Positions 19,852 through 34,982 of a stretch of 35,653 nt of DNA are shown piece after piece. A model generated the notes under the pieces. It saw only the letters and a list, made by a program, of their open reading frames with translations. It ran no database searches and was not told where the DNA came from. Each line of letters begins with the position of its first letter. The first letter of the stretch is position 1. The stretch lies in contig JAFGDY010000115.1 in the NCBI GenBank assembly GCA_016931895.1, positions 1-35,653 of the forward strand, given 5' to 3'. The position numbers and the translations under genes were made by a program. Origin of the DNA: Anaerolineae bacterium. Lineage in GTDB: Bacteria > Chloroflexota > Anaerolineae > 4572-78 > J111.

Positions 19852-21627
19852 TTACCTCAGTTTAATGTGCAGCTCTCGCAATTGCTGTTCGGTCACTTCG
19901 GTGGGCGTGCCGGCCATTAAGTCAAGAGCGGCCTGGCTTTTGGGAAACGCAATAATCTCGCGGATGTTTGGCTCGTTGGCCAGCACCATCACCAGGCGAT
20001 CCAGTCCCGAAGCAATGCCGCCGTGCGGCGGCGTGCCGAATTCAAAGGCTTCCAGCATGTGGCCAAATTGTTCTTTGGCCTTTTCTATATCCAGGCCAAT
20101 CAGGCCAAACACCTTCTCCTGCAAATCGCGCTGGTGAATTCGGATGCTGCCCCCGGCCACTTCGTTGCCGTTAAGCACCAGGTCGTACTGTTTGCCGCGC
20201 GCTTTGCCGGGGTTGGTATCAAGCAGGGGGATATCTTGATCCATGGGGGCGGTGAAAAGGTGATGGCTGGGGTCCCAACGATTTTCTTCTTCGTTCCACA
20301 TTAAAAATGGAAAATCAATTATCCAACAAAAGGCCAATACGTTGTCATTACGCAGACCCAAGCGGTCGCCAATTTCCAGGCGTAGGCGGCCCAACGATTC
20401 GTTGGCAATGGCAAAGGTGTCGGCCACAAAGAGCAGCAGGTCGCCCGGTTGGCCGTGAAGTTGATCAATAATGGCCGACACTTCAGCAGGGGCCAGGAAT
20501 TTGGCAAAGGAGGAGCGGCCTGCCGTAGGCTTATCGTCGTCGCCCTTGTCCACAACCAGCCAGGCCAGCCCCTTGGCTCCAAATTCTTTAACAAACTCAG
20601 CCAGATCGTCCAAATCCTTACGGCTGTAGTGCCCCAGCCCTTTGGCGTTAAAGCCTTTGACCAGCCCGCCGGCAGCCACCACGCTGCTGAACACCTTAAA
20701 GCCACTGTGGGCTACAATGGGGCTGAAGTCGGCCAATTCCAGCCCAAAGCGGATATCGGGGTTATCCCGGCCAAAACGAGCCATTGCTTCTTGATAAGTC
20801 AAACGTGGGAAGGGCTTGGCCAGCAGGGGCAGGGTGGTGGTATTTTCCACCACGCTGATCATCAGGCGTTCAATTACGTCCATCACGTCTTCCCGGTCCA
20901 CAAAACTCATTTCCAGGTCAAGCTGGGTAAATTCAGGCTGGCGGTCGCCGCGCTGGTCTTCATCGCGGAAACAGCGGGCAATCTGGAAGTAGCGGTCAAA
21001 CCCGGCCACCATGATCAGTTGTTTGAGTTGCTGCGGGCTTTGCGGCAGGGCGTAAAATTTGCCGGGGTGCACCCGGCTGGGCACCAGGTAATCGCGCGCG
21101 CCTTCCGGCGTGGTTTTGAACAGGATGGGTGTTTCTATTTCCACAAAATCTTCAGCCGCCAAAAAGTTGCGGATATGGCGGATAACGTTGTGGCGCAAAA
21201 GGATGTTACGCTGCAAACGCTCGCGGCGCAGGTCAAGATAACGGTAGCGCAGCCGGATTTTTTCATCCACCGGCAATTCTTTGTTGATGTCAAAGGGCGG
21301 GGTATTGGCCTGGTTGAGGATTTTTAGTTTTTCGCCTTCAACCTCAATCTGGCCCGTATCCAGTTTGGGATTCTCTTGACCCTCCGGGCGGTGGCGCACC
21401 CGGCCTTCAACCTGGATAACGTATTCGTTACGCAGGGCGTGGGCCGAGTTGTGCATTTCAAGGCTGGTGGTGGGGTCAAAAACAACCTGGGTCAGGCCCC
21501 AGCAGTCGCGCAGGTCAATAAAAATCAAACCGCCGTGATCCCGGCGGCGATGGACCCAGCCGGAGAGGATTACGTTTTGCCCTTCGTGTTCGGCGCGGAG
21601 TTGGCCGCAAGTATGAGTTCTGTACAT
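19852..21627 (-). CDS. aspS: Aspartyl-tRNA synthetase
   Basis: A class II aminoacyl-tRNA synthetase of 591 residues from the ATG at 21627 ([11 protein letters not shown]). The N-terminal OB-fold anticodon domain ([19 protein letters not shown]) is followed by class II motif 2 ([18 protein letters not shown]). A bacterial-type GAD insertion domain comes between motifs 2 and 3, and motif 3 is [13 protein letters not shown]. Length and order are normal for bacterial AspRS. The longer frame from 21678 adds 17 residues that look non-native. The enzyme charges tRNA-Asp. It heads the leftward run with the glycan genes, and the promoter is at 21708-21735. Confidence 0.95.
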
Positions 21628-21707
21628 AATGTTTTTTCTCGTCGGTAAAAAATTAGGGGAGGCTACTGGCGCAACCACCCCTGTGTGATTTCAAGCGTTA
21701 ACGGCGA

Positions 21708-21735
21708 ATTTTAGCACAAAAGGGAAAAGACGCAA
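21708..21735 (-). promoter_or_regulatory. Promoter candidate for aspS and the glycan genes
   Basis: On the minus strand, TTGCGT (21735-21730), a 16-base spacer and TGTGC-TAAAAT (ending at 21708). The -10 is extended and good; the -35 is moderate. Confidence 0.55.
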
Positions 21736-21779
21736 CTGGCCGTAAATTCTTAGTTATTCTAAACCCCCAATAGTAGCGG

Positions 21780-21808
21780 TTGACGTTTTTTTTTTACGGG
21801 AGTAAAAT
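21780..21808 (+). promoter_or_regulatory. Promoter of the DinB-methyltransferase gene
   Basis: TTGACG (21780-21785), a 17-base T-rich spacer and TAAAAT (21803-21808). It is back to back with the aspS promoter. Transcription would start near 21815. Confidence 0.6.
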
Positions 21809-21859
21809 TTGGGTAGTTCTTAACCAAGTTAAGTGCGGTGGACTATCAGTATCAGGTTT

Positions 21860-22876
21860 ATGTGCCAAGAATTACAGCGCAATTTTGAGATCATCCAGTA
21901 TCTGGTTAAAGATGCTTCTCCCGAACAATTGATTTGGCGGACGGGTGAGGGCCAATGTTTGAGTGAGATTCTCTGCCATCTCCGTGACGTGGAAAAATGG
22001 CACGCTCGGGCCGATGTGCCTGGGCTTGATTATCAGAGGCAGCCGGTGTGGTCTGTTGGCGACTTAAGCCCAAATACGTCTACGGCCAACGGTGAGTATG
22101 CTTTTGAAACATACGCCCGTTATCGCCAAGAAACGGTGACGGCGCTACAAAAAGTCCCGGCTGCGGCCTGGCAACGCCGGGCAGTGCATAAATTATTTGG
22201 CGAAATTACCGTGGCCGAGTTAGTACAAAAAATTGATGAAACGGATCACGCCCATATTCGCCAGATAGAAAACGTTATCCACAGGATGCCCCTTAACCCT
22301 TTATTTGCGCGGGCTTTGCAGGAGATTGGCGACTACCACCGGCGCTATCAAGCCCACCTGGGGCCAGCGGCCTCGTTGTTGGATATTGGGGTCGGCACGG
22401 GCCTGGCCCTGCGCCACGTAATGCAACAAAATCCCCATTTAACTTGTACCGGTGTGGATATTCGTGATTTGCGGTTGCCAGAAGTTAGGGTGCCCCTTCG
22501 GGTTTATGATGGGCAGACCCTGCCCTTTGTAGAAAATCAATTTGATGTATCGTTGCTTTTTTACGTGATACACCACTGCGAAAACCCGGAGCGCGTATTG
22601 GATGAGGCGACCCGGGTGACCCGGCAAAAACTCATCATTATCGAGGAATTCCACCGGCCCGGGGCCGATGCGGCCAGCTTGGATTTAACCGAACGGCAAA
22701 GCCATCGCGCCCTGGGCATTCCCCCGGATTTACCCTATCGGCTGTTTGACAAATCGGAGTTTGAGCAGATACTCTGCCGGCGTTATTTGCTTGAAGTTGA
22801 GCAGCAATTATTGCCCTCAAAAACAACCCGGCCTGTGCAAAAATATTTGTATGTTTGTACTGTACCGACAAAATAA
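21860..22876 (+). CDS. DinB-domain/SAM methyltransferase fusion
   Basis: Two domains. Residues 1-145 (from the ATG at 21860) are a DinB_2-like four-helix bundle with the possible metal His residues in LCHL and TDHAH. Residues 160-340 are a class I methyltransferase with SLLDIGVGTGLAL as motif I and YVIHHCENPERVL after it. DinB proteins bind metals and act as thiol-dependent transferases or have unknown roles; the methyltransferase substrate is unknown. An upstream GTG at 21833 would add nine residues; the ribosome-binding site does not decide it. The last 239 bases overlap, in opposite orientation, the reading frame of the serine recombinase, so this 3' end is the probable element insertion point and the final codons may be element-derived. 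Confidence 0.85.
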   Translation: MCQELQRNFEIIQYLVKDASPEQLIWRTGEGQCLSEILCHLRDVEKWHARADVPGLDYQRQPVWSVGDLSPNTSTANGEYAFETYARYRQETVTALQKVPAAAWQRRAVHKLFGEITVAELVQKIDETDHAHIRQIENVIHRMPLNPLFARALQEIGDYHRRYQAHLGPAASLLDIGVGTGLALRHVMQQNPHLTCTGVDIRDLRLPEVRVPLRVYDGQTLPFVENQFDVSLLFYVIHHCENPERVLDEATRVTRQKLIIIEEFHRPGADAASLDLTERQSHRALGIPPDLPYRLFDKSEFEQILCRRYLLEVEQQLLPSKTTRPVQKYLYVCTVPTK

Positions 22877-24569
22877 CACCGTCCGGGCAAACCTTAGCGG
22901 TTACTCTGGCCTTGCGCTTATCATCTTCGACAAACAGAGTTACTTGTACGTCTAACATAGCCAACAGCCGCCGCTTGGCCTCATGAACGGCTATCTTTAG
23001 CTCTGGCAAGTCTTCGCCTTGTGCTTCCGCTTCCCGCAAGGTTTCCAGGTCTTGGGCCACTTGTGCCATAAAAGTAGTGATATTGGTTATCTGTTCCTCT
23101 GTAACCGTTTTGGCTTCAAGTTGTGCTAGTAGCTTGGCCTTGCGGCTTTCCAGTTCATCTAAAACCGCCTCTATCTGTTCAATCTCTGCGGCTTTTTTGG
23201 CTTTGGCCCTCCGACTGGTCAACACATTCAGATTGTCCAATTCTTCATCTAGTTCTTGACCTTTGTCTTTCATCAAGTTTTCAACCAAAGCTAGATCACG
23301 GCGGATTGATTCTACTTTGCCTTCTTGCCGGGAATTGTAACCTTGCAAACCTTCCAGTAGCCTATCTTTATCCCTGGCTATTTTCTCAACCCATTGCCAT
23401 ACCTTTAGGTCAACTACCTCACTACGAAAAAGTGGATTGTGACAATCACAATATCTTCCTTTTTCAGATGGCCTATTGTTGCAGGCATAGTATTTATAAG
23501 TCCTTTCGCCAGTCTTGGTAAGCCCGCGCATTTTGTACCCACACTCGCCGCACGTCACCCGACCAGCTAACAGGTATCTTCCCGGCTTGCGGTTTCGCTT
23601 TGCATATCGTTTGTTTTCCTGTACTTGCGCTTGGGCCAGTTCCCACATTTCCCGGCTGATAATTGCCGGAACAGGGATAGGTATAGATTCGCTGCTTGGT
23701 TTGCTTCTGTCTTTGCCGCGTCTCCCATAATGCCACACCCCGGCGTAAGTTTCATTGGTCAGAATGTGGTATATCGTTTGTCTGCGCCACTTCCCACCTT
23801 TGGGGGATTTGACTCCCATCTCATTTAGCTTTTCTGCGATTCTTAATCCCCCAAGCGGGTTGCCCGGCTCGTCGCCAATCACAAACCAGTGAAAAATCAG
23901 GCGCACGATTTTGGCCTCAACTTCGACAATCTCAAAAAACCATAATTTATCCTCTCTTTTGCGCCTGTGTTCATCTTGTGGTTTGTCAACTTCTTTTCTC
24001 TCTTCGCCTCTAATTGCTCTGTAGCCGTAAAGCGTTTTGCCGTGTGGCACAACATAACCGGCTTTAGCTCTTGCCAATCTTCCCTCGTAAAGTTTCCTGA
24101 CTGTTTCCCGGTGATCCTCGCCAGCCTGCCAACCGGCAAACGAGCCATACATAAAGGCTTCCATCGGATTGAATAGGTCAACTTTTCGGCTATCTTGGCT
24201 ATAATGCAGTTCAACCCCAAGCGACTTTAGTTCTTGCATCAAAAGCAAAAGGTTAATTCCCCATTCTGACCTATCTAACCGATTCGGTTTATAGACAATC
24301 AGGTTGTCGGCCTGCCCGTTGCGTAACGCTTCACGGACTTTGTTGAGTTCCGGCCTGTCTAATACCTTGCCGGTGTAGTCCTCTTTGAAGACCCCCACAA
24401 CCTTTATGTGGTTGATTTCGGCGTAGGCCAAACATTTTTCCTCTTGATTGTCCAAGCTTGTCCCGCTTTCGGCTTGCTCATCAGTGGAGACACGACAATA
24501 GATAATTGCCCTCTCTTGTACCACAAAAGCTAAATCTTGCGTTTTGGATTCTGGTTGCGTTGTCATCAT
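22638..24569 (-). CDS. Large serine recombinase (integrase)
   Basis: A 643-residue large serine recombinase. The N-terminal catalytic domain has AIIYCRVSTDEQ (catalytic Ser28 counted from the ATG at 24569) and the arginine motif YKPNRLDRS. A recombinase domain follows (about 180-320). A zinc ribbon has Cys340/343 and Cys363/374-376, then a long coiled coil (about 420-530). The start was chosen at 24569 because GGAG lies five bases upstream. The last roughly 79 residues are read antisense through the 3' end of the methyltransferase gene, are Pro/Arg-rich and do not look native. The stop codon at 22638 is therefore host-supplied. This enzyme is the likely integrase of the whole AT-rich element. 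Confidence 0.93.
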   Translation of the reverse strand: MMTTQPESKTQDLAFVVQERAIIYCRVSTDEQAESGTSLDNQEEKCLAYAEINHIKVVGVFKEDYTGKVLDRPELNKVREALRNGQADNLIVYKPNRLDRSEWGINLLLLMQELKSLGVELHYSQDSRKVDLFNPMEAFMYGSFAGWQAGEDHRETVRKLYEGRLARAKAGYVVPHGKTLYGYRAIRGEERKEVDKPQDEHRRKREDKLWFFEIVEVEAKIVRLIFHWFVIGDEPGNPLGGLRIAEKLNEMGVKSPKGGKWRRQTIYHILTNETYAGVWHYGRRGKDRSKPSSESIPIPVPAIISREMWELAQAQVQENKRYAKRNRKPGRYLLAGRVTCGECGYKMRGLTKTGERTYKYYACNNRPSEKGRYCDCHNPLFRSEVVDLKVWQWVEKIARDKDRLLEGLQGYNSRQEGKVESIRRDLALVENLMKDKGQELDEELDNLNVLTSRRAKAKKAAEIEQIEAVLDELESRKAKLLAQLEAKTVTEEQITNITTFMAQVAQDLETLREAEAQGEDLPELKIAVHEAKRRLLAMLDVQVTLFVEDDKRKARVTAKVCPDGVILSVQYKHTNIFAQAGLFLRAIIAAQLQANNAGRVSAQTPICQTADRVNPGECPGRDGFAVRLNPSWPHRPRAGGIPR

Positions 24570-24617
24570 TCTTTCTCCATTCTTGGATAGGCGAGCCAAT
24601 GACCGGCGGCCTGTTGA

Positions 24618-24983
24618 TTACTTTTTCCCGGCCTCAATCAAGACCGGCTGATTGTCCGTTATTGCCTGCCATAATTCGTGTCTTGTGGCCTGTGGTGGGG
24701 GGAGATACAAAATCCTTGTCTCAATTCGCTCTACGGCCTGCTGGCGTGGTCTAACGGCCAACACAACCGACAAGGCCACAATCGCCAGCCCCAACAACCC
24801 GACAATGGCAAGGGCCACAAAGGGAACAATTGCCCCGGCTGTAATGGCCCAAGCTTGGGCAGAATGTAACCGGCTCTCTGCTTGGGCCTCAATTATCATT
24901 GCCTGGGCTTGCCCTCTGGCGTATTCTAAGTTAGCCTGGGCATTGGTTTGGCGGGTTGCGCTATCGCTGGCGTATGAATACAT
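24618..24983 (-). CDS. Small membrane protein, 121 aa
   Basis: Not recognised. The N-terminal 40 residues form an Ala/Gln/Glu-rich amphipathic helix (QAQAMIIEAQAESRL). One long or two short TM helices follow (about 46-78, ITAGAIVPFVALAIVGLLGL onward), with a charged C-terminal tail. The ATG at 24983 lies inside the preceding 43-codon gene in another frame. An internal ATG at 24899, just after that gene's stop, is an alternative start. Its place between the translocase-like operon and the integrase suggests a membrane accessory role, such as an Spd-like spread protein or a minor virion/lysis protein. Confidence 0.65.
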   Translation of the reverse strand: MYSYASDSATRQTNAQANLEYARGQAQAMIIEAQAESRLHSAQAWAITAGAIVPFVALAIVGLLGLAIVALSVVLAVRPRQQAVERIETRILYLPPPQATRHELWQAITDNQPVLIEAGKK

Positions 24984-25057
24984 AGTAGGGCAACAGACAG
25001 TCCCAAGCCTATTAAAAACAGGATAGTGCAGCCCATAGCGTTGTTTTTGCTGTTCAT
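24926..25057 (-). CDS. 43-aa single-TM peptide
   Basis: A short frame not obvious from length alone. It has 43 residues with a basic N-terminus (MNSKNNAMG), one strongly hydrophobic helix (CTILFLIGLGLSVALL) and a Pro-rich tail (PAKPMPRLT). Its ATG overlaps the previous stop as ATGA (25054-25057) and has GGAAGGGG seven bases upstream, among the best ribosome-binding sites in the element. Its 3' end overlaps the start of the 121-aa gene by 58 bases. It could be a signal-anchored peptide, a minor coat or pilus-like subunit, or a lysis peptide; function is unknown. Confidence 0.65.
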   Translation of the reverse strand: MNSKNNAMGCTILFLIGLGLSVALLCIHTPAIAQPAKPMPRLT

Positions 25058-25272
25058 TGTGCCGCCCCTTCCTTTTCCCGTTGCCAGTTAAAAAACCTAA
25101 TCATAGATGCACACTCTGAACAAAAAAGGTGTTCTCCTAACAATTCTACGGCCTTACCTGAGCATTGTTTATCATCATTTTTATGCTGCCTTGCCGCGCA
25201 CTTTTTGGGGTTCATTTTCTTGCGCCAGGGTCGGCTATCGTCATATAGCAAAAAATCATAATGATGTTTCAT
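25054..25272 (-). CDS. Small Cys4 (zinc-ribbon-like) protein, 72 aa
   Basis: Hydrophilic, with four cysteines at 25, 37, 51 and 54 (C-x11-C-x13-C-x2-C, ending FCSECASMIRF), a likely structural zinc site. No family was recognised. The ATG overlaps the translocase stop codon by four bases. Its first codons (MKHHYD) resemble those of the ATPase upstream (MKHQKD), perhaps a shared translation start context. It could be a small DNA-binding or adaptor protein. Confidence 0.65.
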   Translation of the reverse strand: MKHHYDFLLYDDSRPWRKKMNPKKCAARQHKNDDKQCSGKAVELLGEHLFCSECASMIRFFNWQREKEGAAQ

Positions 25273-26537
25273 TGTCCTATTTCCTCTCTGACTCTGGCGT
25301 CTCTAATTTCCCGGCCAAACTTCTCCAAAACGGCTTTGACCTTGCTAGTGTTATATCCGTTTTGTTGCCCAAAAACACTGGTGGCAATCTGGCTGATGCC
25401 TTGACCCTGGTCATATCGTCTCAGGATGCTTGACTCCAGTCTGCTTGGCTGTGGTTTGTGGTCAAAGTCCATTTGGAGACTATAAAGTGATAGGGTGCAG
25501 TCATAGTCAAGTCTTGGCCTGTGGTGGGGTATGCCGGTCACTGGTACGTCAATCAGGTTTGAGCCAATGGAACAAACCACTTTTTTGCCGGCGTGGTCAA
25601 TCTCTCCATTGTGATGATAGGCCGGGATAATCTCAAGACGAGTCATCTGGTCTTTGAGACTCGCCCCCTGCCTGCCCAAGCCAAAAGCACCCTTGACCCT
25701 GCTATGTACGATGAAATAGAGCAACAGCCCCCGCGCTGCAAACACGGTTAGGGCCTGGCTGACAAAGGACTCAAGTTCCTTGCCACCTATCAGACTGGCA
25801 AAGCTGGTGAAGTCCTCAAGGAAAACAGGTTGTAGGTTCATTTCACCATAGGCCATCTGTTTGGCTAACTGCTGCCTGACTTGGGCCTCTTGCTTAACCA
25901 GGTCAAACCCGGTCACAATGCTGTCACTGTCCGGCCCAAACTGCTCACAGTGGGCATACTCGCCAAAATCATACTTTTGAGCAATCACAATGGGCTTGAT
26001 GCCTTGTTTCATCCAATATTCAACCAGGTAATGGGCTAAGGTGGTTTTGCCGGTCTGTTGGTCGGCCACGATAGAATAGCACCTTCTGGGCTTGGTCATT
26101 ACTTCCAAAAAGTCCAGGGTTTGCACATTGCCGCTTGCCAGTTGTAGCATTTCGCTTTGTTTCAATTGGGGGGTGTAAATGGGAAACAACTGCCCATTGC
26201 TAAACGTATAGGCTACGTGGTTGTGGTCGTGCGTGATAATGCTGGACTCATTTTCCAATTTGCGGGTGATAGCCTCATCCCGCCTGACTTTGTGCCTGAT
26301 AGTGTGCCAGGCCAGCCAAGCCAGGTATAACCCGCCGGCAATAGCAACAATAGCAACGATAGCACTAACAGCATAAGCCAGGTATGTTGCCAAAATAACC
26401 ACAACCGGCCATGCTGCTATTATTGCTAAAACTGCTATTAGGAAAGTGAACAGCCCGACATACCAGAAAAAGCGAATCTTGATGCTGTTGGGCCTCTTTT
26501 CGATTTCGCCTATGACCACATCTTTTTGATGTTTCAT
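25269..26537 (-). CDS. Membrane-anchored P-loop ATPase with C-terminal HTH (FtsK/TraB-like candidate)
   Basis: A 422-residue protein. Two or three TM helices lie at residues 22-80. A P-loop follows at ADQQTGKTT (158-166, Lys164-Thr165) and a Walker B-like strand at QPVFLEDF (236-243). The C-terminus (370-415) looks like a helix-turn-helix (ILRRYDQGQGISQIA, then NTSKVKAVLEKFG). The order TM, motor, DNA-binding HTH is that of FtsK and of actinomycete TraB conjugative translocases, although the motor is short and lacks the classical GTTGSGKS loop. Alternatives are a T4 coupling-like protein, a Zot-like filamentous-phage ATPase or a packaging ATPase. Both ends overlap neighbours as ATGA, so it is the core of a translationally coupled block. 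Confidence 0.7.
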   Translation of the reverse strand: MKHQKDVVIGEIEKRPNSIKIRFFWYVGLFTFLIAVLAIIAAWPVVVILATYLAYAVSAIVAIVAIAGGLYLAWLAWHTIRHKVRRDEAITRKLENESSIITHDHNHVAYTFSNGQLFPIYTPQLKQSEMLQLASGNVQTLDFLEVMTKPRRCYSIVADQQTGKTTLAHYLVEYWMKQGIKPIVIAQKYDFGEYAHCEQFGPDSDSIVTGFDLVKQEAQVRQQLAKQMAYGEMNLQPVFLEDFTSFASLIGGKELESFVSQALTVFAARGLLLYFIVHSRVKGAFGLGRQGASLKDQMTRLEIIPAYHHNGEIDHAGKKVVCSIGSNLIDVPVTGIPHHRPRLDYDCTLSLYSLQMDFDHKPQPSRLESSILRRYDQGQGISQIATSVFGQQNGYNTSKVKAVLEKFGREIRDARVREEIGQ

Positions 26538-26722
26538 ACCATCACCCCCATTGCAAATAAGACAGAGACGCCCACAATTGCCAGCAAGGTTACTGTTACC
26601 TGTAACCTGCCTGGCGTGGGTTTGTGATCGGGCAAGACGGTATACATATTCTTGGGCAAGTCTACAATTCTGTTGCTGGCGGTTGCTCTTGCTTGCTCAT
26701 ATTGCTGCCAAAAGTACCTCAT
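26534..26722 (-). CDS. Small TM protein, 62 aa
   Basis: A 62-residue protein with a hydrophilic N-terminal 40 residues (MRYFWQQYEQARATA) and one C-terminal TM helix (VTVTLLAIVGVSVLFAMGVMV), a tail-anchored type. ATGA overlaps exist at both ends, and the ribosome-binding site GGAGGG is in the 3' end of the previous gene. No homologue was recognised. Its position directly before the ATPase suggests it is a partner of that protein. Confidence 0.75.
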   Translation of the reverse strand: MRYFWQQYEQARATASNRIVDLPKNMYTVLPDHKPTPGRLQVTVTLLAIVGVSVLFAMGVMV

Positions 26723-27528
26723 CCTACACCCTCCCTCTGTTCAAGTTCTGTTGCCTTGCTATGGCCGTTTGCTCTAACTTTGCAGTGAGCCAAATGGCCG
26801 TTAAGCTGGCGTTGCTTCTCAAAGGCTTCGCCGCAATGCTCACAGATAAAGCCCTTGCTCATTTTTTGCTCTTGCCTCGCTTCGACGTTGCTAATGTCTA
26901 CCTTGTACTGCGCTCGAAGCTTCCTCATCTCCAGCTCATTGGCTGTCTTGGCCTGCTCGACGGTTAGCTGAAGTTTGCTCAACTCCATTTCTAGCATTGC
27001 TCTCTTTTTGCTGGCCTCTAGCTCGAAGTCAATTTGCTTTTGCTCCCGCTCTAGCTCGTTGACATCTGCCAGCCCCACACCAATGACTACCAGCATAGGT
27101 ACAAAAGCTACCGTAAAATTCCACGCATTTTGTAGCCAAATATTGGGAAAAACGTCCCTTACGGCTTCAAAACCGTTTTGCATAAAGTAGAGATACGGTA
27201 TAGCAACAAGAGGTAAGCTTAGAGCTAACAGTGAGGTAACAGTGAGCAAAGCATACCAGGCGATTGAGCTAGCTTTGAGCAAACGCCATTTGTTGAGAAT
27301 GAAGGCGATAGCAAAACCTTCTAGCACGGCCATAGCTACACCTGCTATAACCTCAGATATGCCCAAGCTAGTGTGAAGATAGCCCTCTGCTACAAAGCCA
27401 GCCGATAAAGCAAACGCGCCAGCATAACGGGGGATAGCGATAGTAACCGCCGCTATCTTGAGCAGGTTGGCTTGAGTAGTTATTCTGTTGTCGTTTCCAG
27501 GGGAATATGATAAAATGTTCTTAGACAT
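26719..27528 (-). CDS. Four-TM protein with coiled coil and C-terminal C2H2/C2HC zinc finger
   Basis: A 269-residue protein from the ATG at 27528, with AAAGGA eight bases upstream; the longer frame from 27609 is unlikely. Four hydrophobic helices lie at about 22-48, 54-79, 88-115 and 135-156. A charged coiled coil (157-225, DVNELEREQKQIDFELEASK) follows, then a compact finger with Cys229, Cys232, His245, His248 (Cys249 next), reading CEHCGEAFEKQRQLNGHLAH. The layout of four TM helices plus a soluble tail recalls SpdB/DUF2637-type spread proteins of actinomycete plasmids, but that is an analogy. A zinc finger of eukaryotic/archaeal style on a bacterial membrane protein is uncommon. It is the first gene of the ATGA-coupled block. 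Confidence 0.75.
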   Translation of the reverse strand: MSKNILSYSPGNDNRITTQANLLKIAAVTIAIPRYAGAFALSAGFVAEGYLHTSLGISEVIAGVAMAVLEGFAIAFILNKWRLLKASSIAWYALLTVTSLLALSLPLVAIPYLYFMQNGFEAVRDVFPNIWLQNAWNFTVAFVPMLVVIGVGLADVNELEREQKQIDFELEASKKRAMLEMELSKLQLTVEQAKTANELEMRKLRAQYKVDISNVEARQEQKMSKGFICEHCGEAFEKQRQLNGHLAHCKVRANGHSKATELEQREGVG

Positions 27529-27623
27529 AATATGTGTCCTTTCGCGTGTTATGTCGGCTATTGCCGGTGGGCGTCTCTCCGGGCCAAAGGTGGGGCGTCC
27601 ATCGGTCAATAACCTCCTTTCGT

Positions 27624-27782
27624 TTAATCTCCGTTATCGTCAATACTAACTGTAACATCACCTTTAACCCACGCCTTGAGCAATTGCCGAACGACAACCG
27701 CCAAAGGCACGTGACTCTTTTGTGCTTTGGCTTTGGCTTGTTTCCACCAAAACGAGTCAAAATAAATTGAACGTAGTACCAT
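27624..27782 (-). CDS. Ribbon-helix-helix (Arc/CopG-like) regulator, 52 aa
   Basis: Started at the ATG at 27782 because GAAGGGAG lies about ten bases upstream. The 52-residue product (MVLRSIYFDSFWWKQAKAKA, then KSHVPLAVVVRQLLKAWVKGD) has the length and strand-helix-helix pattern of Arc/CopG repressors: a short strand, a helix, a turn at HVP and a second helix. Longer frames begin at 27836 and 27884 but lack such a site. It precedes the membrane/ATPase block by 95 bases. Its promoter (27843-27871) contains two identical 7-base boxes, so it probably represses its own operon. Confidence 0.75.
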   Translation of the reverse strand: MVLRSIYFDSFWWKQAKAKAQKSHVPLAVVVRQLLKAWVKGDVTVSIDDNGD

Positions 27783-27826
27783 TTTGCTTTTACTCCCTTC
27801 GTCATTATTGCTTGAGTTAATATGTT

Positions 27827-27871
27827 TACTAGACATATATATAATATATACTAGATATATATATTTGTCAA
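27827..27871 (-). promoter_or_regulatory. Strong promoter with paired TACTAGA operators
   Basis: On the minus strand, TTGACA (27871-27866), a 17-base spacer and TATATT (27848-27843). The box TACTAGA (plus strand) occurs at 27849-27855, inside the spacer next to the -10, and again at 27827-27833 just after the expected start of transcription. The two copies are 22 bases apart, two helical turns. A repressor dimer pair bound there would block RNA polymerase. Confidence 0.7.
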
Positions 27872-28003
27872 GAGGCAAAAGCAAAATTCTTTATGCGTTC
27901 ATTCCACGCGCTCGCCTGGTCAAACCCTGTTCTTTCCTGTTTTTCAGGCTCTATTGTTCACTCCACGCAGGCGGTGTGTTCGGTGGCACGGCCTATCTTC
28001 TCT

Positions 28004-28039
28004 ATCGGGGTGTCAATTTTTTGACTGCCCGATTTTTTT
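28004..28039 (+). terminator. Plus-strand Rho-independent terminator
   Basis: ATCGGG-GT-GTCAA-TTTT-TTGAC-TG-CCCGAT followed by a T run to 28039. All annotated genes nearby run the other way, so it would end an unannotated rightward RNA. Confidence 0.7.
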
Positions 28040-28116
28040 GTCACCACCCCCAATGACATCCGTTCCCTCGCCTCCTCCTCCAGCATCGGCAATACATTAA
28101 CCGACAACGCCGCCAA

Positions 28117-28134
28117 AGTCGGAACGTTCCGACT
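28117..28134. repeat. 18-base perfect palindrome
   Basis: AGTCGGAACGTTCCGACT, uninterrupted and perfect, in the non-coding control region. It is the type of site bound by a dimeric regulator or replication protein. Confidence 0.7.
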
Positions 28135-28274
28135 CCCGCCGCCTGGGTCAAAAAAATCAGAAGGAGTAGATTTAGTAAGAAAAATGAGAATGGGTCGGCG
28201 GCTTTATTCTACAAGCTATAGCTCGCCCCTTCGTCAAAATTGTATTTTTGGCGCAAGGTTGAGACATCCGGCTC

Positions 28275-28829
28275 TTACCCTTTCGTTAGTGGACTATCAC
28301 CCTTTACCTGGTTAACCTGTTGCGCTCCGATATTGACTTGTAACAAGGCGGGGGTACGTTGAGCTAAACAGCGGATACGGGCCAGAGTTTCAATTGCCCG
28401 AAAATAACGAAGTTGACTCACGCTCAAGCGTTTTTCCCAATGTTGTACTTGTGCCATAGTAGCTTGATCCGAATTTTGAGTAAACAGAGCCTCAACCCAG
28501 TATAAACGTATATGGCACAATATAATCTGTTCAATCAAAAGCCTTTCAAGTTGTGAACTATTGTCATAGCCCAACGCAGCCTTTGTGTTTTTCATTATTT
28601 CCAGAGTAGCAAGTTTAAGGGCTTGGTTGTCTCCAGACAGCTTCTTCACCACTGCTTCTCTAGTGATCTTCACCATATCAAACATATTAAGTAGGGCCGG
28701 AATTTCTTTAATAGAATCTCTAAATCTTTCAATATCCTCATCAGTTCCCCGACCCTCTTGCAGTGCCATCAGATATTCATTAACTTCACTTCTTAGTTGT
28801 TCCCTCTTGCTTTTATGTTTTCTGCTCAT
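28275..28829 (-). CDS. Conserved mobile-element protein, 184 aa (function unknown)
   Basis: Mostly helical, soluble and charged, with no TM segment. The C-terminal end ALLQVNIGAQQVNQV matches the QVNIAxxQVN-type tail recurring in a family of mobile-element hypothetical proteins; this is a recollection of the family and was not searched. It is usually encoded beside a small W-E-R-x-N-x-R-Y-Y-Y protein, as here. The body contains a conserved-looking helix (LERLLIEQIILCHIRLYW). Role unknown; possibly a DNA-packaging or regulatory accessory. It lies 66 bases downstream of the 77-aa gene in the same direction. Confidence 0.7.
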   Translation of the reverse strand: MSRKHKSKREQLRSEVNEYLMALQEGRGTDEDIERFRDSIKEIPALLNMFDMVKITREAVVKKLSGDNQALKLATLEIMKNTKAALGYDNSSQLERLLIEQIILCHIRLYWVEALFTQNSDQATMAQVQHWEKRLSVSQLRYFRAIETLARIRCLAQRTPALLQVNIGAQQVNQVKGDSPLTKG

Positions 28830-28895
28830 TCGTTTTCTTCTCCATTGGCCTTTATGCCTGTGGTGTCCTGTGGCGAGCAGGGCCTGCGTGAGTGA

Positions 28896-29129
28896 CTATC
28901 CGTATTTTGGTAGATAATTCACATCAATCTGGCGTTCAATAGCCTTGATTTCCGCTTTCTCTTGTTGCCATTTCTCACGCTCAAGCTGTTGTCTCTCACG
29001 CTCAAGCTGGGTGAGGTTATCAATCACCTCAGCCAAAGATCCACTGCCCATATATTTAGAAACACAGGTTCCGTTTTGCCAGTGTTTGCAATAGTAATAT
29101 CGTCTATTATTTCTTTCTTCCCACCCCAT
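28896..29129 (-). CDS. Small conserved WEERNxRYYY protein, 77 aa
   Basis: The N-terminus MGWEERNNRRYYYCKHWQNG, then SKYMGSGSLAEVI, is a recognisable small mobile-element family (W-E-x-R-x-G/N-x-R-Y-Y-Y ... Y-x-G-x-G). A basic/acidic coiled coil of about 35 residues follows. The first half may be a beta-rich nucleic-acid-binding fold. GAGGTG lies about 12 bases upstream of the ATG at 29129. It pairs with the 184-aa gene downstream. No function is established. Confidence 0.7.
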   Translation of the reverse strand: MGWEERNNRRYYYCKHWQNGTCVSKYMGSGSLAEVIDNLTQLERERQQLEREKWQQEKAEIKAIERQIDVNYLPKYG

Positions 29130-29398
29130 TTGTGCTAGGTCACCTCACTACCCCCGCTTCAGGGTTGTTTTCATTTGGCATAAAGTCTGAATCGTCTGTT
29201 TAAGGTCATTCATCCACTGAGGCGGTGGCGGATCAACCTGAGGATAGCCTAACTCAAACTCACACAACAGAATCGCTAGGGTTAGAGCTTGTATGGATGA
29301 CATCGGTCGGTATAGGTTTGGTACTCATTCCTATTTTTTATAGTCATCCCTTCGTGAAGATTCTCATTTATACAGTTTATGGGTATGCAAATATGCGC
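29130..29398. other. 269-base interval without a convincing gene
   Basis: A plus-strand frame here has one hydrophobic stretch but lacks a credible start site and overlaps the PrimPol 3' end. Nothing else is recognised. Confidence 0.4.
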
Positions 29399-30907
29399 TT
29401 ACGAGTTTTCACCCCTCTTCAACACCAACTTATGCCATCGCCGCTCTTGAATATGTTTTTGCCTTTCCAGTTCGCCCTTTCCTGATGTTCCTAGCATTTC
29501 GGCAACAGCATCCAGATTCACTTCTAGCTTCTTCCACAATCCCCCTCCGATCTTTTCAGCCATATAGGACCGATCCATCAAATCTAGCTTGCGGTAGACT
29601 GTTTTTCTTCCACGGCCTGTGGCGATCACAAGATCGTTGACTGATGCTTCCGTCAGTTCCTGCAATTTGTAGTAAATGTCTGCTCCTGTTTTGCCCAAAC
29701 CAGACCACCTAAACGCATCATGCTCATACTGAGGTTGGAGATTGTCATAGTTACACACTCCATCACATTGGGTTGACTGAGTGGGTAAGGATGACACAAT
29801 ATCAACAATTGACCATACATTGGACAGTGAGGCAGTCGCGGGTTTTTCCAGGTCTAGCAGACCAGCTTTAGCAAGACGATGATTAGCATTAGTGGCTGTT
29901 TTCCAAGAAATCCCTGCTAATTCTGCTAACTCTCTTATACTTGCGGCATAAGACAACTTACCACATTTTGAAACAATACTTAAATGAGCCAGATATACCG
30001 CTTTGTCTGTTGCCCCAGTTCTACCCGGCCAGGGGTGAGACATCGCCCAACCCCTTAACTTTTGAGCCATTGCTTCAGCCTCATTTGCATTGGCCTTGAG
30101 ATATTCTCGGACATTTTGGTAAGTGTGGTATAAATAGCGTTGCCCATTCTCTTGATTCTCAGAATAAAGTTCACTAAACTTTCCAGTACCGGGGTGAGCA
30201 ATGTAGAAAGCTGATATTTCACCAAACCCAAACCCGGCCCGAATAAGAGATGCACACAGAGCGGCTTCGGCTTCACTTCGCGTCGAGTATTTGGAGATTG
30301 TCTCCAGATCACCCTGCAATAATCGCCAAGCTAAACGTGGTAAATCTCTTCGGTATTTAGCTTCATTGGCCACTGCAAGTTGTAACTCAGGAATAGTGGC
30401 AAGATCATCCAGCTTAAAAATAGAATTTGGTTTTGTCTTAAATAGGTAAGTTGCCCCGGTTGGATGCCTGGAATAAGGTGCAATAACAATTGCTCCACAT
30501 CCTCTGACTTCGCCAAATTCACATACCCCACTTTTGATTGGGCTGTCAGCCAAGAAATAAAAGTGCTGTCCTCCCCCGTGAGGGTCATTAGGTGCAAAAT
30601 TATCGCGCTGCACCTCCCAGGTCTTTATCCCCAATCCGGCTATTCGATTGTTAAAGGCTTCCGCTTTTGCCCGGTTATCGCAATCAAGAAAAAAAGGATA
30701 ACCATTTTGACTCTTAACCCCACCGATCAAGGCGATATTGGCATTTTCCAGCCCATCGAAGAGGCTTTGAACTTCTTTGGTGGTTTGGAGAATATGCTGA
30801 TATTGTTTCCAGCCTCCCCAAACGGGGCTATTCTTTGTGCCTGTTTCAAACGGTATGGGGGTCAAACCTTGCCGATGGTAGTCAAGAGCTATATCCAGCA
30901 GGTTCAT
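29399..30907 (-). CDS. PrimPol-type replication protein with two C-terminal HTH domains
   Basis: A 502-residue protein whose N-terminal 180 residues are a bifunctional primase/polymerase (PrimPol, archaeo-eukaryotic primase fold) domain. It has the N-terminal helix LDIALDYHRQGLTPIPF, metal-binding FLDCDN (Asp75, Asp77), DPHGGGQHFYF (His110, His115) and GAIVIAPYSRHPTGATY. About residues 300-355 are a winged helix (SIRELAELAGISWKTATNA), and about 405-450 a second HTH (VIATGRGRKTVYRKLD). No helicase domain is attached. It is probably the element's replication initiator/primase, equivalent to RepPP proteins of AICEs. It overlaps the upstream 84-aa gene by 26 bases. Confidence 0.88.
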   Translation of the reverse strand: MNLLDIALDYHRQGLTPIPFETGTKNSPVWGGWKQYQHILQTTKEVQSLFDGLENANIALIGGVKSQNGYPFFLDCDNRAKAEAFNNRIAGLGIKTWEVQRDNFAPNDPHGGGQHFYFLADSPIKSGVCEFGEVRGCGAIVIAPYSRHPTGATYLFKTKPNSIFKLDDLATIPELQLAVANEAKYRRDLPRLAWRLLQGDLETISKYSTRSEAEAALCASLIRAGFGFGEISAFYIAHPGTGKFSELYSENQENGQRYLYHTYQNVREYLKANANEAEAMAQKLRGWAMSHPWPGRTGATDKAVYLAHLSIVSKCGKLSYAASIRELAELAGISWKTATNANHRLAKAGLLDLEKPATASLSNVWSIVDIVSSLPTQSTQCDGVCNYDNLQPQYEHDAFRWSGLGKTGADIYYKLQELTEASVNDLVIATGRGRKTVYRKLDLMDRSYMAEKIGGGLWKKLEVNLDAVAEMLGTSGKGELERQKHIQERRWHKLVLKRGENS

Positions 30908-31136
30908 TCTGCTGTTTCACCTGCCTGGTCTTGAGTTTGTGTAATTCAAACCAGATTAGAAAATGCTCCCCATACCGTTTGATACTTATTGCCATCTTTT
31001 TTGGGGTCTGGGTGAATAGACCACCAAGGGGTTGAAGCTCCGGCCTGCTTCTGAGATACTGATCATTGACAGCGATTTGCCCCGCGTCATTAGCTTCAAT
31101 GCCTACCTTGCAGGTTGGTATGTTTCTTTTATCCAT
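30882..31136 (-). CDS. Uncharacterised small protein, 84 aa
   Basis: Not recognised. The start is the ATG at 31136 with GGGAG about six bases upstream; a GTG one codon earlier is possible. The product is basic and soluble, with a central strand/helix mix (KKMAISIKRYGEHFLIWFELHKLKTRQVK). It overlaps genes on both sides (31129-31136 and 30882-30907), which supports it being translated. It may be an accessory to the PrimPol protein. Confidence 0.6.
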   Translation of the reverse strand: MDKRNIPTCKVGIEANDAGQIAVNDQYLRSRPELQPLGGLFTQTPKKMAISIKRYGEHFLIWFELHKLKTRQVKQQNEPAGYSS

Positions 31137-31350
31137 CACTTCTCCCGGTTTGCCCTAGAACCGGCGGTGACGTAAAATCATTGTGCCGGTCAATTTCGGT
31201 TGATTCGGTATGGACCGCGTCGGGGTGGGCTGCCAGGCTATCACCCGGCGCGGTTTGCATTTGGCGAATTTTTTCAGCCTCGCTGTGCAAGGCTGCGTAA
31301 AATGTTCCCCAAAAGTTAGCCATTATTTCTTGGGCGTTTACTTTTTGCAT
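31129..31350 (-). CDS. Uncharacterised small protein, 73 aa
   Basis: Start at the ATG at 31350 (MQKVNAQEIMANFWGTFYAA) with GGAAGGG six bases upstream; the longer frame from 31398 would run through the RHH gene end. It has one amphipathic helix, then a polar, Asp/Thr/Ser-rich tail. It overlaps the RHH gene by 13 bases and the 84-aa gene by 8. No homologue was recognised. Confidence 0.6.
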   Translation of the reverse strand: MQKVNAQEIMANFWGTFYAALHSEAEKIRQMQTAPGDSLAAHPDAVHTESTEIDRHNDFTSPPVLGQTGRSDG

Positions 31351-31532
31351 TGGTGGCCCTTCCCAGCCTTTTGGTCGTGGCCGATAGTGGGCGGCCATAC
31401 CCCGGCCTGCTTAGCAGCGTTGCGAATCAAGCGCCGAATATAGGCCGCCAATGATTCCCCCTCGGCCAATTTCGCAGCAGCCTCTTTTTCAGCCGGGCTT
31501 AGTACCAATCCAAAACGTTCTGTTTTCTTCAT
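31338..31532 (-). CDS. Small RHH-like/mobilisation-type DNA-binding protein, 64 aa
   Basis: From the ATG at 31532 (GGAGG eight bases upstream) the product begins MKKTERFGLVLSPAEKEAAA and continues KLAEGESLAAYIRRLIRNAA. This is the strand-helix-helix layout of ribbon-helix-helix proteins linked to plasmid control or relaxase accessory factors. The C-terminal 20 residues are Lys/His-rich. Directly upstream is a long inverted repeat (31555-31594), a probable operator, so it is likely self-regulated and first gene of the replication unit. Confidence 0.7.
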   Translation of the reverse strand: MKKTERFGLVLSPAEKEAAAKLAEGESLAAYIRRLIRNAAKQAGVWPPTIGHDQKAGKGHQCKK

Positions 31533-31554
31533 AACGAAAGCCTCCGAAAATAAA

Positions 31555-31594
31555 AATGGTGTCAATGTTAATCAATTACAACATTGACACCATT
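31555..31594. promoter_or_regulatory. 15-bp perfect inverted repeat operator candidate
   Basis: AATGGTGTCAATGTT, a 10-base spacer, then AACATTGACACCATT. It lies 23 bases upstream of the RHH-like start codon and overlaps the place where its promoter should be. No strong -10/-35 pair was settled. Confidence 0.7.
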
Positions 31595-31611
31595 GTATCA
31601 AATGGAGTTGG

Positions 31612-31637
31612 AAAAAATGGAAATTTCGGAAATTTCC
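31612..31637 (-). terminator. Terminator of the 464-aa gene
   Basis: On the minus strand, GGAAATTT-CCG-AAATTTCC is followed by ATTTTTT, just after the stop codon of the 464-aa gene. The stem is AT-rich, so it is weaker than usual. Confidence 0.6.
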
Positions 31638-31649
31638 AAATTTTTCGGA

Positions 31650-33044
31650 TTATTTTAGTTGTCCGGCATCACCAGCCTTGATAATCTCTCTAAGTTGTCT
31701 GTCACTGTACTGGATTCCTTGGGCTTTTAGAGCATCAAGGAGGTCACTGATTTTAGGAATCGGGGTTTCCGTTTCGAGATTTTCGTAACTGTTTTGGTAT
31801 TCTGTTCTGGTTTCAATGACTATACTATAAGCCTTTTTCCACTTCTGGATGGTTGCTTGTTTTATAGGTAAAAATGCTTTCTGCTCTATTTGTTCGGTAT
31901 CTTCGAACTTGGCAGCAAATTGTAATGCCGCCTCATCAGATGTTATTCTGCCCAATTCGTCTCGTTCATTCACCTTTTTTCTAAACTGGTCAATAAGTTG
32001 ACACCAAGCCCGCCATCTTTCATTTAGTTCCCCCTCAGTGATTCCCGGTTCTCTATTTCGTAATTCCGTTTTATATTCGGTTTCGGATATAGGATTTTCA
32101 ACCCATTCCTTTAACAATGGGTAAGTGACAAATTCATCTATAACCATTTCTTGTGCTACTTGAGAATCACTTAGAGATTGCACTGAACCAAGCTCTATCA
32201 AACCTATTTCAGCAAACAAAGAGATTATCTTTCTCCAACTGGTGATAGCCTCAAGTGTTGGGGTTGTTTTTTTATATCGGTTTAGTTCAATTTGTGTTTT
32301 TTCATCAATTACACGCCAGACTTCAATGAGGACATTATCAATTTCCCACGCGCATCCCCTATCAATTTCTTCAGCGATCTTCAAATGAAGAGCATATTTC
32401 TTATTCCATAGATTCACCAACTGGATTACATCGTGCAGGTTAGCTTTGAGTGTCACTCGGTAGATAAATGAAGGATTTCTCTCTTGAGTATGGATATCCG
32501 GGTTGACCCAACCTTTCCATTTTGGCTCTAGCGTGGGAGCAAGGCCCTGCGTCTGCCGGATTTCAACACCCTTTATTTCGGATAATTTGGTAAAAAACTG
32601 CTCTACAACTCCCCTTGATTCCGGATAAGCTTGCTCAATCCAAGCCAACATTTCAACAAAGTACCCCAAACAAACCGCTTGCCTGCATTTTGCTGTTACC
32701 TCCAATCTGGTGGGGGAAGGCATCGAAATAACAAATTCAATGACGGATCCGATAGGCTGGGCATATTCAGTATCAGAATCTCGTTTACTCAGCGTGATAT
32801 AGAACCCATCCAATTGTATCACGTTTTTGCCAGAAACCATTTGCTCGAGTCTGGCCTTTTGAAGACCAATATGTCCTTTTTCGGTAGGAAATTGTTTTGC
32901 AGAGGCATTACTGGTTTTTTCGGCCAGCCATTGAGAAAAGAATTTTAACTCTGTATTAAGCCAAAATTGGATACTTGGCAGGCAGAAATATCGTTCTTCG
33001 TTCTGAATTTTAATAATATCTTTTACTAACTTTTCCAAATCCAT
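31650..33044 (-). CDS. Uncharacterised 464-aa element protein
   Basis: Not recognised. Soluble, highly charged and mostly helical, with no TM helix and no clear nucleotide-binding motif. Residues 60-130 look beta-rich (NVIQLDGFYITLSKR, then SVIEFVISMPS). The C-terminus (LLDALKAQGIQYSDRQLREI) resembles a helix-turn-helix. The ATG at 33044 has GGTGG eight bases upstream, in a leader that folds into several hairpins. It may be a regulator, replication accessory or defence-related protein of the element. Its leader and separate terminator show it is its own transcription unit. Confidence 0.65.
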   Translation of the reverse strand: MDLEKLVKDIIKIQNEERYFCLPSIQFWLNTELKFFSQWLAEKTSNASAKQFPTEKGHIGLQKARLEQMVSGKNVIQLDGFYITLSKRDSDTEYAQPIGSVIEFVISMPSPTRLEVTAKCRQAVCLGYFVEMLAWIEQAYPESRGVVEQFFTKLSEIKGVEIRQTQGLAPTLEPKWKGWVNPDIHTQERNPSFIYRVTLKANLHDVIQLVNLWNKKYALHLKIAEEIDRGCAWEIDNVLIEVWRVIDEKTQIELNRYKKTTPTLEAITSWRKIISLFAEIGLIELGSVQSLSDSQVAQEMVIDEFVTYPLLKEWVENPISETEYKTELRNREPGITEGELNERWRAWCQLIDQFRKKVNERDELGRITSDEAALQFAAKFEDTEQIEQKAFLPIKQATIQKWKKAYSIVIETRTEYQNSYENLETETPIPKISDLLDALKAQGIQYSDRQLREIIKAGDAGQLK

Positions 33045-33167
33045 AAAAAAACCACCTTTCCAACTTGACGGCGGTGGCTAAACACAGTAAGCTGTTACTG
33101 TCAGCCTGCCGTTTTCAGGTTGACCCATGCCTCAGCCGGTCACGCGGCGTGAGGTTTTTTTATTATA
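33045..33167 (-). promoter_or_regulatory. Promoter and structured 5' leader of the 464-aa gene
   Basis: An extended -10, TGTGC-TATAAT, lies at 33167-33162 on the minus strand (weak -35 TTCCGT), giving a leader of about 110 bases. The leader has a long hairpin (complement of 33068-33112) and, next to the gene, a CCACC/GGTGG stem that would pair the ribosome-binding site and is followed by TTTTTTT. These two structures share the CCACC segment, so they are mutually exclusive, as in an attenuator. Confidence 0.55.
33068..33161 (+). ncRNA. Possible plus-strand small RNA ending in a terminator
   Basis: Read on the plus strand, the segment folds as ACGGC...GGCT...ACAGTAA-GCTG-TTACTGT...AGCC...GCCGT (33068-33112), then a terminator hairpin CCTCAGCCG/CGGCGTGAGG (33130-33154) followed by seven T. 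That is the layout of a small regulatory RNA antisense to the leader of the 464-aa gene. No strong plus-strand promoter was found, so this is a suggestion only. Confidence 0.35.
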
Positions 33168-33337
33168 GCACAGCAGTTCTAAAACGGAACAAAAACCCTA
33201 ACCGTTATTTTGGGAGGCCACCGAAGCATAATCCAACAGCTTACTAATTTGAGTAATGGCTATATCGGCCTTATAGCTAAGCAGCGTGGCACTCACCTCA
33301 AAACAATCTTGTAATTGATGCACTACAACCAAAACTG

Positions 33338-33347
33338 TGCTAAAATA
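33338..33347 (+). promoter_or_regulatory. Extended -10 candidate of the STAND operon
   Basis: TGTGC-TAAAAT at 33337-33347, the same extended -10 type as at aspS and the MBL gene. No good -35 is present. It lies about 40 bases upstream of the first gene. Confidence 0.45.
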
Positions 33348-33385
33348 CTTTGGGGGGTCATATCCTAAAAAAGGCTTTTTGACCA

Positions 33386-34219
33386 ATGACCGATCCAAAG
33401 GCCACACTCCAAAAACTCAATAAAAACCTCAGTATCCTCCAAGAACGCGAAGCCAAATTTGCGGACAATGCACCCCTGGACCTACTTAACCAAATCACCG
33501 ATCACCAACAAGCCATTGATCTGACCCGGCAAGTCATCACCGGTGAGATCAGCGAGGCTGACTGGCGCGAAGCCATGCGCCCACTGCTGATAAACGTCCA
33601 CGACCGCAGCGAGGCCCAGCCGGATACCTGCGGCATTTCCATGGGTGATGTTGAAGACAGCATTATTGCCAGCGGCGATGTAGCCAATACTCAGGTAGCG
33701 CACGGTAGTTACATTGCTCAAGCCAGTCACGGCGGTAAGGCCGAGGTTAATATTAATACCATTGACCAGCGCGGGCAGCAGGTTGAAACCCAGTATAATG
33801 CCGGCGGTGATATTAACATTTATAACAATCAAACGCCGCCTTCGCTGTATCAACGGGGAGGATATATCATCATTGGGGCTATGCTGGCTATGGCCGTGAA
33901 TGTGGCTGGTAATCTGCTTTCTGCCGGGCTGGAACAGCGGTTTTTTAGCAGCGGTTTTACCACTCAGTCCCTGTGGGGCTTGGGCTTGTTTGCTTTGGCC
34001 GGGGGCATCCTGGGGTTATGGCTCAGCGGCCCGGTGACGATGCCGGCGCCGACTGCTTCGCCTGCACAGCCGGTCCAGCCGGTCACCATTACCCGCCTGC
34101 GGGCGCTCTTGACCTACATCAAACTCAGAGGCAAGGGCATCAACCTGAGCGATATTTTGCTGATTGGCTCAAAACTTGATATTGATACCTGGAGTAACGA
34201 TGACCCACCCCACCATTAA
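33386..34219 (+). CDS. Helical N-terminus/beta-repeat/two-TM protein of a split STAND system
   Basis: A 277-residue protein in four parts. Residues 1-70 are a helical module (QKLNKNLSILQEREAKFA, then LLNQITDHQQAIDLT and ISEADWREAMRPLL). This type is often found at the N-terminus of, or beside, NTPases of prokaryotic conflict systems. Residues 86-147 are short Gly-Asp-rich repeats (GDVEDSIIASGDV, then GGDINIY) that may form a beta-solenoid. Two TM helices follow at about 158-180 and 194-215. After a Pro-rich linker comes a C-terminal helical segment (RLRALLTYIKLRGKG). It overlaps the NTPase gene by 20 bases. It could be the membrane-damaging or membrane-anchoring component; no enzyme motif is seen. 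Confidence 0.75.
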   Translation: MTDPKATLQKLNKNLSILQEREAKFADNAPLDLLNQITDHQQAIDLTRQVITGEISEADWREAMRPLLINVHDRSEAQPDTCGISMGDVEDSIIASGDVANTQVAHGSYIAQASHGGKAEVNINTIDQRGQQVETQYNAGGDINIYNNQTPPSLYQRGGYIIIGAMLAMAVNVAGNLLSAGLEQRFFSSGFTTQSLWGLGLFALAGGILGLWLSGPVTMPAPTASPAQPVQPVTITRLRALLTYIKLRGKGINLSDILLIGSKLDIDTWSNDDPPHH

Positions 34220-34982
34220 CCGCGAACCGGCCGTTGACCTGTTTCACCAAATCATGCACCCCCAATCCACCCACTGGGTGCTGCGACTGTTGGGCGAAGG
34301 CAAAATGGGCAAAAGCCACTTGCTGACCAAGGTGTTCCCGCTGTTAGCCCGACAAAGCTACCAGGCCGCTTGGGCTGTGGTAGATTTGCGCGGCGGCATC
34401 ACTGCACCGGATATTTTACACCAAAGCTGCGCCCAACTTGGCGGCGAAACCCGGTTCCCCAGCTATTATGCCGCCTATGAAAATTGGCTTAACCAACCCA
34501 GGGTAGAGGTTAAAGGGTTGCAAGCCCTGCTATCCAGCATCAGCATCCGTGCTGGCGAGCAGGATACCGACCCCCGCCGCGTAGAGCGCCTTTTGACTAC
34601 CAAGTTTATAGCCGATTTGCAAACCTTAGCTCCTGATCCGGTGTTGTTGATGTTTGATGCTCTGGAGCAAAGCGACCCTGCCATTCAGCATTGGCTGATG
34701 AATGAGCTATTGGTGAGCCTGACGCCGCTGCAACACGTGCGCGTGGTGCTGGCCGGGCGCGCTATCCCGGATGCCGCCGGCAGTTACGCGGCCTGCTGCC
34801 ACTCTTACGAGCTGGTTCCGGTCCGGGATGAAACAGCCTATATTGTTTTCTGCCAACAACTCAACTTGACCATCACCGAACAATCCATTAGAGATTTTGC
34901 TTTGGTATTTGATTACAAACCGGGCTTTTTTGTAGATTTTGTATTGCCTAAATTTAGCCAAGCAGGTGCGGCCCATGAATGA
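34200..34982 (+). CDS. Stand-alone STAND-like P-loop NTPase
   Basis: A 260-residue ATPase core started at the ATG at 34200 (GGAG five bases upstream, overlapping the previous gene). Walker A is GEGKMGKS (residues 32-39), Walker B is PVLLMFDALEQSD (147-159) and the sensor-1-type strand RVVLAGR (181-187) has the Arg typical of STAND proteins. It ends there, without the sensor repeats that STAND proteins normally carry on the same chain; the next gene encodes TPRs instead. STAND NTPases are ligand-triggered switches of immunity and cell death. It probably relays a signal from the TPR protein to the membrane protein upstream. Confidence 0.82.
   Translation: MTHPTINREPAVDLFHQIMHPQSTHWVLRLLGEGKMGKSHLLTKVFPLLARQSYQAAWAVVDLRGGITAPDILHQSCAQLGGETRFPSYYAAYENWLNQPRVEVKGLQALLSSISIRAGEQDTDPRRVERLLTTKFIADLQTLAPDPVLLMFDALEQSDPAIQHWLMNELLVSLTPLQHVRVVLAGRAIPDAAGSYAACCHSYELVPVRDETAYIVFCQQLNLTITEQSIRDFALVFDYKPGFFVDFVLPKFSQAGAAHE

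Follow-up and report, generated by a model that had tools for sequence, protein, structure and literature searches.

The window, by which we mean the whole stretch of DNA analysed, is the entire contig C115 (35,653 bp) of a 6.06-Mb bacterial genome of Chloroflexota type, the nearest named relatives being Chloroflexota (Anaerolineae) genomes from metagenomes. It carries, on the minus strand, a large serine integrase gene that converges with a host methyltransferase gene and ends inside it. The integrated element extends past the contig's right-hand limit, and its other end lies on a separate contig, C277 (locus L052).

On the window:
19852-21678, minus strand: aspartyl-tRNA synthetase gene, the next same-strand gene beyond the antisense methyltransferase, in the path of integrase read-through
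21833-22876, plus strand: methyltransferase gene (Methyltransf_11), a host gene convergent with the integrase
22638-24599, minus strand: large serine integrase ORF, 653 aa in the integrated form (ORF and translation); residues 1-586 come from the element or the shared core and 587-653 from the antisense strand of the host gene
22638-22841, minus strand: host part of the integrase ORF, 67 codons plus stop, antisense to the methyltransferase 3' part (attL/attR comparison and empty-site orthologues in genomes G001 and G005)
22842-22854: attL core AATATTTGTATGT, 13 bp, symmetry centre 22847/22848, holding the crossover
22855-35653: integrated element, integrase end
22864-22874: attP half-site arm ACCGACAAAAT, element side of attL, providing codons for VILSV on the integrase strand
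25269-26537: P-loop/membrane protein
27624-27884: Arc-like repressor
29399-30907: Prim-Pol type primase

On C277 (L052):
10991-11003, minus strand: attR core, the same 13 bp as the attL core
about 10998-12701: the element's other end
11014-11024: perfect inverted mate of arm ACCGACAAAAT
11014-11095: orphan integrase 3' end and terminator at attR, immediately downstream of the host genes for the YfhO-like protein and the regulator, in the orientation of both

The integrase has the domains by which large serine recombinases are recognised, namely the Resolvase catalytic domain (PF00239, 9e-25), Recombinase (PF07508, 2e-22) and a zinc ribbon (Zn_ribbon_recom, PF13408, 5e-11), and it matches the PHROG 95 integrase (4e-87). 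The coiled-coil insertion of its C-terminal region is seen in long predicted helices at residues 411-459, 463-497 and 501-530, with a strand pair after them. After integration all of these domains remain joined in a single 653-codon frame.

As the original prediction held, this frame runs antisense into the methyltransferase gene over 239 bases and takes its stop there, which the ORFs and their translations bear out. The residues thereby gained from the host number 67 (587-653) rather than the approximately 79 first proposed, because positions 22855-22876 of the overlap are element DNA. Their description as Pro/Arg-rich is weak, the 79 residues containing 7 Pro, 8 Arg and 11 Ala. The antisense frame through the methyltransferase is also open in G001 (76 codons) and in G005 (18 codons); judged from these orthologues, an open antisense frame in this gene is unremarkable.

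No capsid or conjugation genes were recognised within 24618-33044 of the window, and none of the small ORFs beside the integrase (24618-24983, 25054-25272 and 27624-27884) was identifiable as a recombination directionality factor (RDF). Related proteins, MTDPKATLQKLNKNLSILQEREA and MTNLKCVLQQLPKNLNHLKEREA, are encoded near both contig ends of the element (window 33386-34982 and L052 11619-12700), where they are accompanied by an AAA ATPase and a TPR protein, respectively. It is possible that they belong to a repeat that broke the assembly.

Attachment sites and the empty locus

The comparison with an empty site that the original prediction had proposed could be made in two relatives, the sister genome G001 and the same-family genome G005, and it located the boundary of the element. 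In both, an element-free methyltransferase gene is convergent with a gene for a large YfhO-like membrane protein. The window's own genome has its YfhO-like gene on C277, with 69% identity to the G001 counterpart, followed by a response-regulator-type wHTH gene, by a match to the methyltransferase 3' end that runs in the expected direction, and then by unrelated DNA. The 13-bp core occurs exactly twice in the 6.06-Mb genome, one copy per junction.

With the ORFs, the attL and attR sequences and the empty sites read directly, we reconstructed attP, attB and a 604-aa form of the integrase from two unjoined contigs of a metagenome-type assembly; this element is the one for which both junctions could be reconstructed with confidence. 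When the two element flanks are put together, they form ATTTTGTCGGT-N32-ACCGACAAAAT, in which perfect inverted arms of 11 bp lie symmetrically about a point in the core; in full, the predicted attP reads ATTTTGTCGGT-TGAGTTTTGC-AATATTTGTATGT-TTGTACTGT-ACCGACAAAAT. A symmetric run of at least 10 bp arose in 13 of 20,000 shuffles of the flanks. Serine-integrase attP sites have been described with perfect inverted repeats and a total length of 42-69 bp (PMC4068962), and the reconstructed site, with its perfect 11-bp arms, 32-bp spacer and 13-bp core, has the form expected of an attP for a large serine recombinase. The two host flanks, put together likewise, form an attB with which the methyltransferase would end ...KYLYVMRVKK, where its G001 counterpart ends KYLYVMQGM.

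The reconstructed attP sequence was absent from the viral contigs searched, and the circular form was not seen there. A degenerate version of the two-arm motif occurred at 13 places in those contigs, which we took as chance matches because none lay at a locus with an integrase-like ORF. DNA from the right end of the element, searched in 30 relatives, matched only itself.

The integrase in the reconstructed circle and in the integrated form

In the reconstructed circle the integrase would comprise 604 aa and finish with its own 18-residue end (...QYKHTNI-AKLNRQNWLTIETVVDLE-TAA). The integrated form (...HTNI-FAQAG...GGIPR*) has 653 aa, identical through residue 586 and then followed by the 67 methyltransferase-antisense residues. 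The expectation that the frame would end differently in the excised circle thus agrees with our reconstruction, by which the change in the integrase C-terminus upon integration is real. The crossover in the reconstructed attP adjoins codon 586 of the 604-codon form, placing attP inside the integrase coding sequence.

Five bases past the TAA of the circle form lies GGCCAGCCCGCGGGCTGGCC-TTTTTCTTTG, a hairpin with an 8-bp GC stem and a T-run (-18.7 kcal/mol, z -3.1) and, as predicted from these properties, a strong intrinsic terminator. Integration moves the native 18-codon tail, the stop and this terminator to attR, and when positions 21600-25200 of the window were scanned for terminators, nothing resembling one turned up on the minus strand. 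The host gene receives its end from the element: positions 22855-22876 supply the present last codons and stop of the methyltransferase and so regenerate its 3' end, changing the reconstructed native terminus ...KYLYVMRVKK to ...KYLYVCTVPTK. Because the attP arm gives substitute last codons, the methyltransferase frame stays open, and on this comparison a near-identical C-terminus is returned to the protein after integration.

The displaced terminator raises the alternative that integration switches expression, with its output in RNA and not in the protein tail. Loss of the stop and terminator would yield a long prophage transcript antisense to the methyltransferase, perhaps a less stable one, and the moved terminator would insulate the host operon at attR. 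The strong terminator so close behind the circle stop, the lack of a similar minus-strand site around attL, the new position of the terminator downstream of the YfhO-like and regulator genes, and the aspartyl-tRNA synthetase gene next in line on the integrase strand are all consistent with such an arrangement. However, transcription of the integrase may be very low once the element is integrated, and other kinds of termination are possible on the antisense strand of the methyltransferase; we consider this explanation unlikely. Loss of the terminator may lead to antisense transcription of the methyltransferase, and an RNA-level effect of this kind is at least as plausible as an effect through the protein.

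Integrase ends in relatives

Homologues from genomes G009 and G010 and a paralogue from the same genome match the integrase only to about residue 580. Sought among homologous integrases, the same C-terminal 79 residues were found in none, and the outcome that the original prediction had named as its refutation did not arise. A 42% match to residues 571-651 in G001 is the methyltransferase gene read backwards, the integrase being absent there. Because homologues stop matching near residue 580 and the G001 match is a backwards methyltransferase, the 67-residue tail is, from these alignments, not an integrase feature. An AlphaFold2 model built from 37 sequences is confident to about residue 573, with pLDDT below 50 at 574-593 and 608-653; the tail is thus predicted to be disordered and outside the conserved fold.

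Integrases related to this one include the following:
L041 (G000:C24) 484-2229, plus strand: paralogue integrase of the same genome, 55% identical, stopping antisense within the 3' end of a squalene/phytoene synthase gene
L240 (G009:C5), contig positions about 84972-90530: putative serine-integrase element of very small size, about 5.6 kb
L093, L094, L098-L100, L105-L107, L113, L115, L116, L124, L125, L128, L129 and L132: integrase ends antisense to tRNA or tmRNA genes

Further relatives end inside genes for PIG-L, DsbH-type thioredoxin, class V aminotransferase, PEPCK, methyladenine glycosylase, ClpS, NAD-binding and LeuD-type proteins, CobU, diphosphomevalonate decarboxylase (MVD), short-chain dehydrogenase and SMC, these ends being placed by gene overlap and the tails presumably host-derived at least in part. 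Among 63 relatives with complete ORFs on genome contigs, 16 end within or past an opposite-strand tRNA or tmRNA gene, and it is because their frames do so that tails of the ...GIEPxTS... type arise. C-termini antisense to tRNA or tmRNA 3' ends (...GIEPRTPCL, ...GVEPMTSCMPCKRSSQLS) occur in serine integrase ORFs mostly of Bacteroidetes. Host-derived tails in relatives show no relationship from one site to another, and their lengths vary from a few residues to about 70. At L061 and L079 a class V aminotransferase gene is cut at one shared place (profile position about 200 of 371) and appears disrupted, not preserved.

The half-site motif TTTTGYCGRT occurs in the window, in the C24 paralogue (TTTGGCCGGT, one mismatch) and in G009:C5 (TTTTGCCGAT), each time with the same offset in codons, 37 nt from the start of a conserved stretch. 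The attP half-site therefore belongs to the coding sequence. We searched for att pairs as direct repeats in four elements (G009:C5, G050, G093 and G001:C177). The search yielded, for G009:C5, a candidate pair with a 9-bp core ACTACTTGA and arms TTTTGCCGAT and ATTGGCAAAG, the best of 53 candidates and one that rests partly on the motif match. This candidate core contains the integrase stop TGA, and integration would therefore leave the protein unchanged; the G009:C5 stop thus probably lies inside the att core. In the other three elements nothing rose above background, and the other junction of the C24 paralogue was not found by way of the neighbour gene of its G010 orthologue or of the core pattern. 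Taken over the relatives as a whole, an integrase C-terminus rewritten by integration seems to be common in this serine integrase family.

These comparisons bear on the direction switch suggested in the original prediction. Spelled out further, such a switch would have the 18- and 67-residue tails alter activity, stability or partner binding such that integration is favoured before insertion and silence or excision after it. The protein does differ after integration, and precedents of a kind exist: in BPs-type phages an attP within a gene changes the C-terminus of its product, the repressor losing a C-terminal degradation tag upon integration (PMC4557955, PMC9262239), and an RDF fused to an integrase C-terminus alters direction (PMC5737554). 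Nevertheless, the C-termini of relatives are unrelated, of many lengths and often host-derived at unrelated sites, the tail is predicted to be disordered, and the G009:C5 candidate would show no change at all. Moreover, phiC31 integrase is reported not to need its final 21 residues, and a C-terminal fusion to that enzyme works (PMC5737554, quoting earlier work on the residues); in the serine integrases known so far it is the RDF that sets direction (PMC3783163; PMC4068962). A direction switch is thus unsupported, and we regard a functional switch by the exchanged tails as improbable.

A proposed compact integrase-attP module and its known counterparts

The explanation that we favour, and hold to be very probable as a whole, is that a large serine integrase moves an element whose attP overlaps the 3' end of the integrase's own coding sequence. 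One attP half-site, TTTTGTCGGT, would provide the codons with which the conserved part of the enzyme ends, and the crossover and second half-site would fall within the terminal coding stretch, ahead of TAA and the intrinsic terminator. The attB would occupy the final methyltransferase codons, and recombination with it would leave int(1-586) at attL, where the frame would read the methyltransferase antisense to a chance stop and give 653 aa. The native 18-codon tail, stop and terminator would be shifted to attR, behind the host YfhO-like and regulator genes and in their orientation, and the attP arm at attL would give the methyltransferase new last codons and a stop, keeping that gene intact. 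Such a compact module explains all of our observations without a switch. The change at the C-terminus is most likely a tolerated by-product of it and not a means of setting direction. We infer that the host-derived tail is neutral; the native 18-residue tail could yet have a function.

A variant starts from the same overlap. Since the attP half-site doubles as codons of the conserved end in this branch of serine integrases, every integration would give a site-specific, host-encoded tail, and through loss of the native tail and terminator the integrated state would itself be sensed, with recombination lowered or redirected in response; we give this little credence. That a chance antisense ORF and a misassembly have combined, with the C277 junction unrelated to the element, is very hard to believe, for although two separate contigs of a metagenome-type assembly are involved, the core is unique to both junctions, the attP arms are symmetric, the host gene is continuous to YLYVM and synteny holds in two relatives.

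The empty site and the reconstructed attP indicate that a serine integrase can, through the reaction it catalyses, rewrite the 3' end of its own gene. C-termini of host origin may be frequent among the integrases annotated in genomes, and those mined from genomes therefore risk being made with a tail foreign to them and with their native end missing. Serine integrases are now being gathered as tools for genome engineering, and reconstruction of the attP form before cloning would mend such tails. In the passages searched of a survey of large serine recombinases in which thousands of att sites were reconstructed (PMC10083194), host-derived C-termini are not mentioned. We found no report in the open-access literature of a serine integrase with attP in its coding end, although an earlier one may exist.

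In its Resolvase, Recombinase, zinc-ribbon and coiled-coil architecture the integrase resembles known large serine recombinases (phiC31, TP901-1, A118/LI, Bxb1 and SPbeta YokA), and as in phages, ICEs and IMEs that use such enzymes, a short symmetric attP has arms around a short core and the end or interior of a host gene is targeted. Their attP, however, usually lies beside the integrase gene, upstream or downstream (PMC4068962), whereas here it is placed in the 3' coding end, with the stop and terminator across the crossover. Archaeal 'suicidal' integrases of the SSV1 and pTN3 type likewise have attP within the integrase gene, which integration alters (PMC8371274), but these are tyrosine-family enzymes whose gene is split into inactive parts. 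The serine-family enzyme described here keeps its domains joined and exchanges no more than its last 18 residues. A third likeness is to the immunity system of BPs-type mycobacteriophages, in which attP also lies in coding sequence and the viral and prophage proteins differ at their C-termini. There, the repressor is shortened and loses its degradation tag; here, no evidence of a degron was seen, and the integrase is lengthened by residues that the host encodes.
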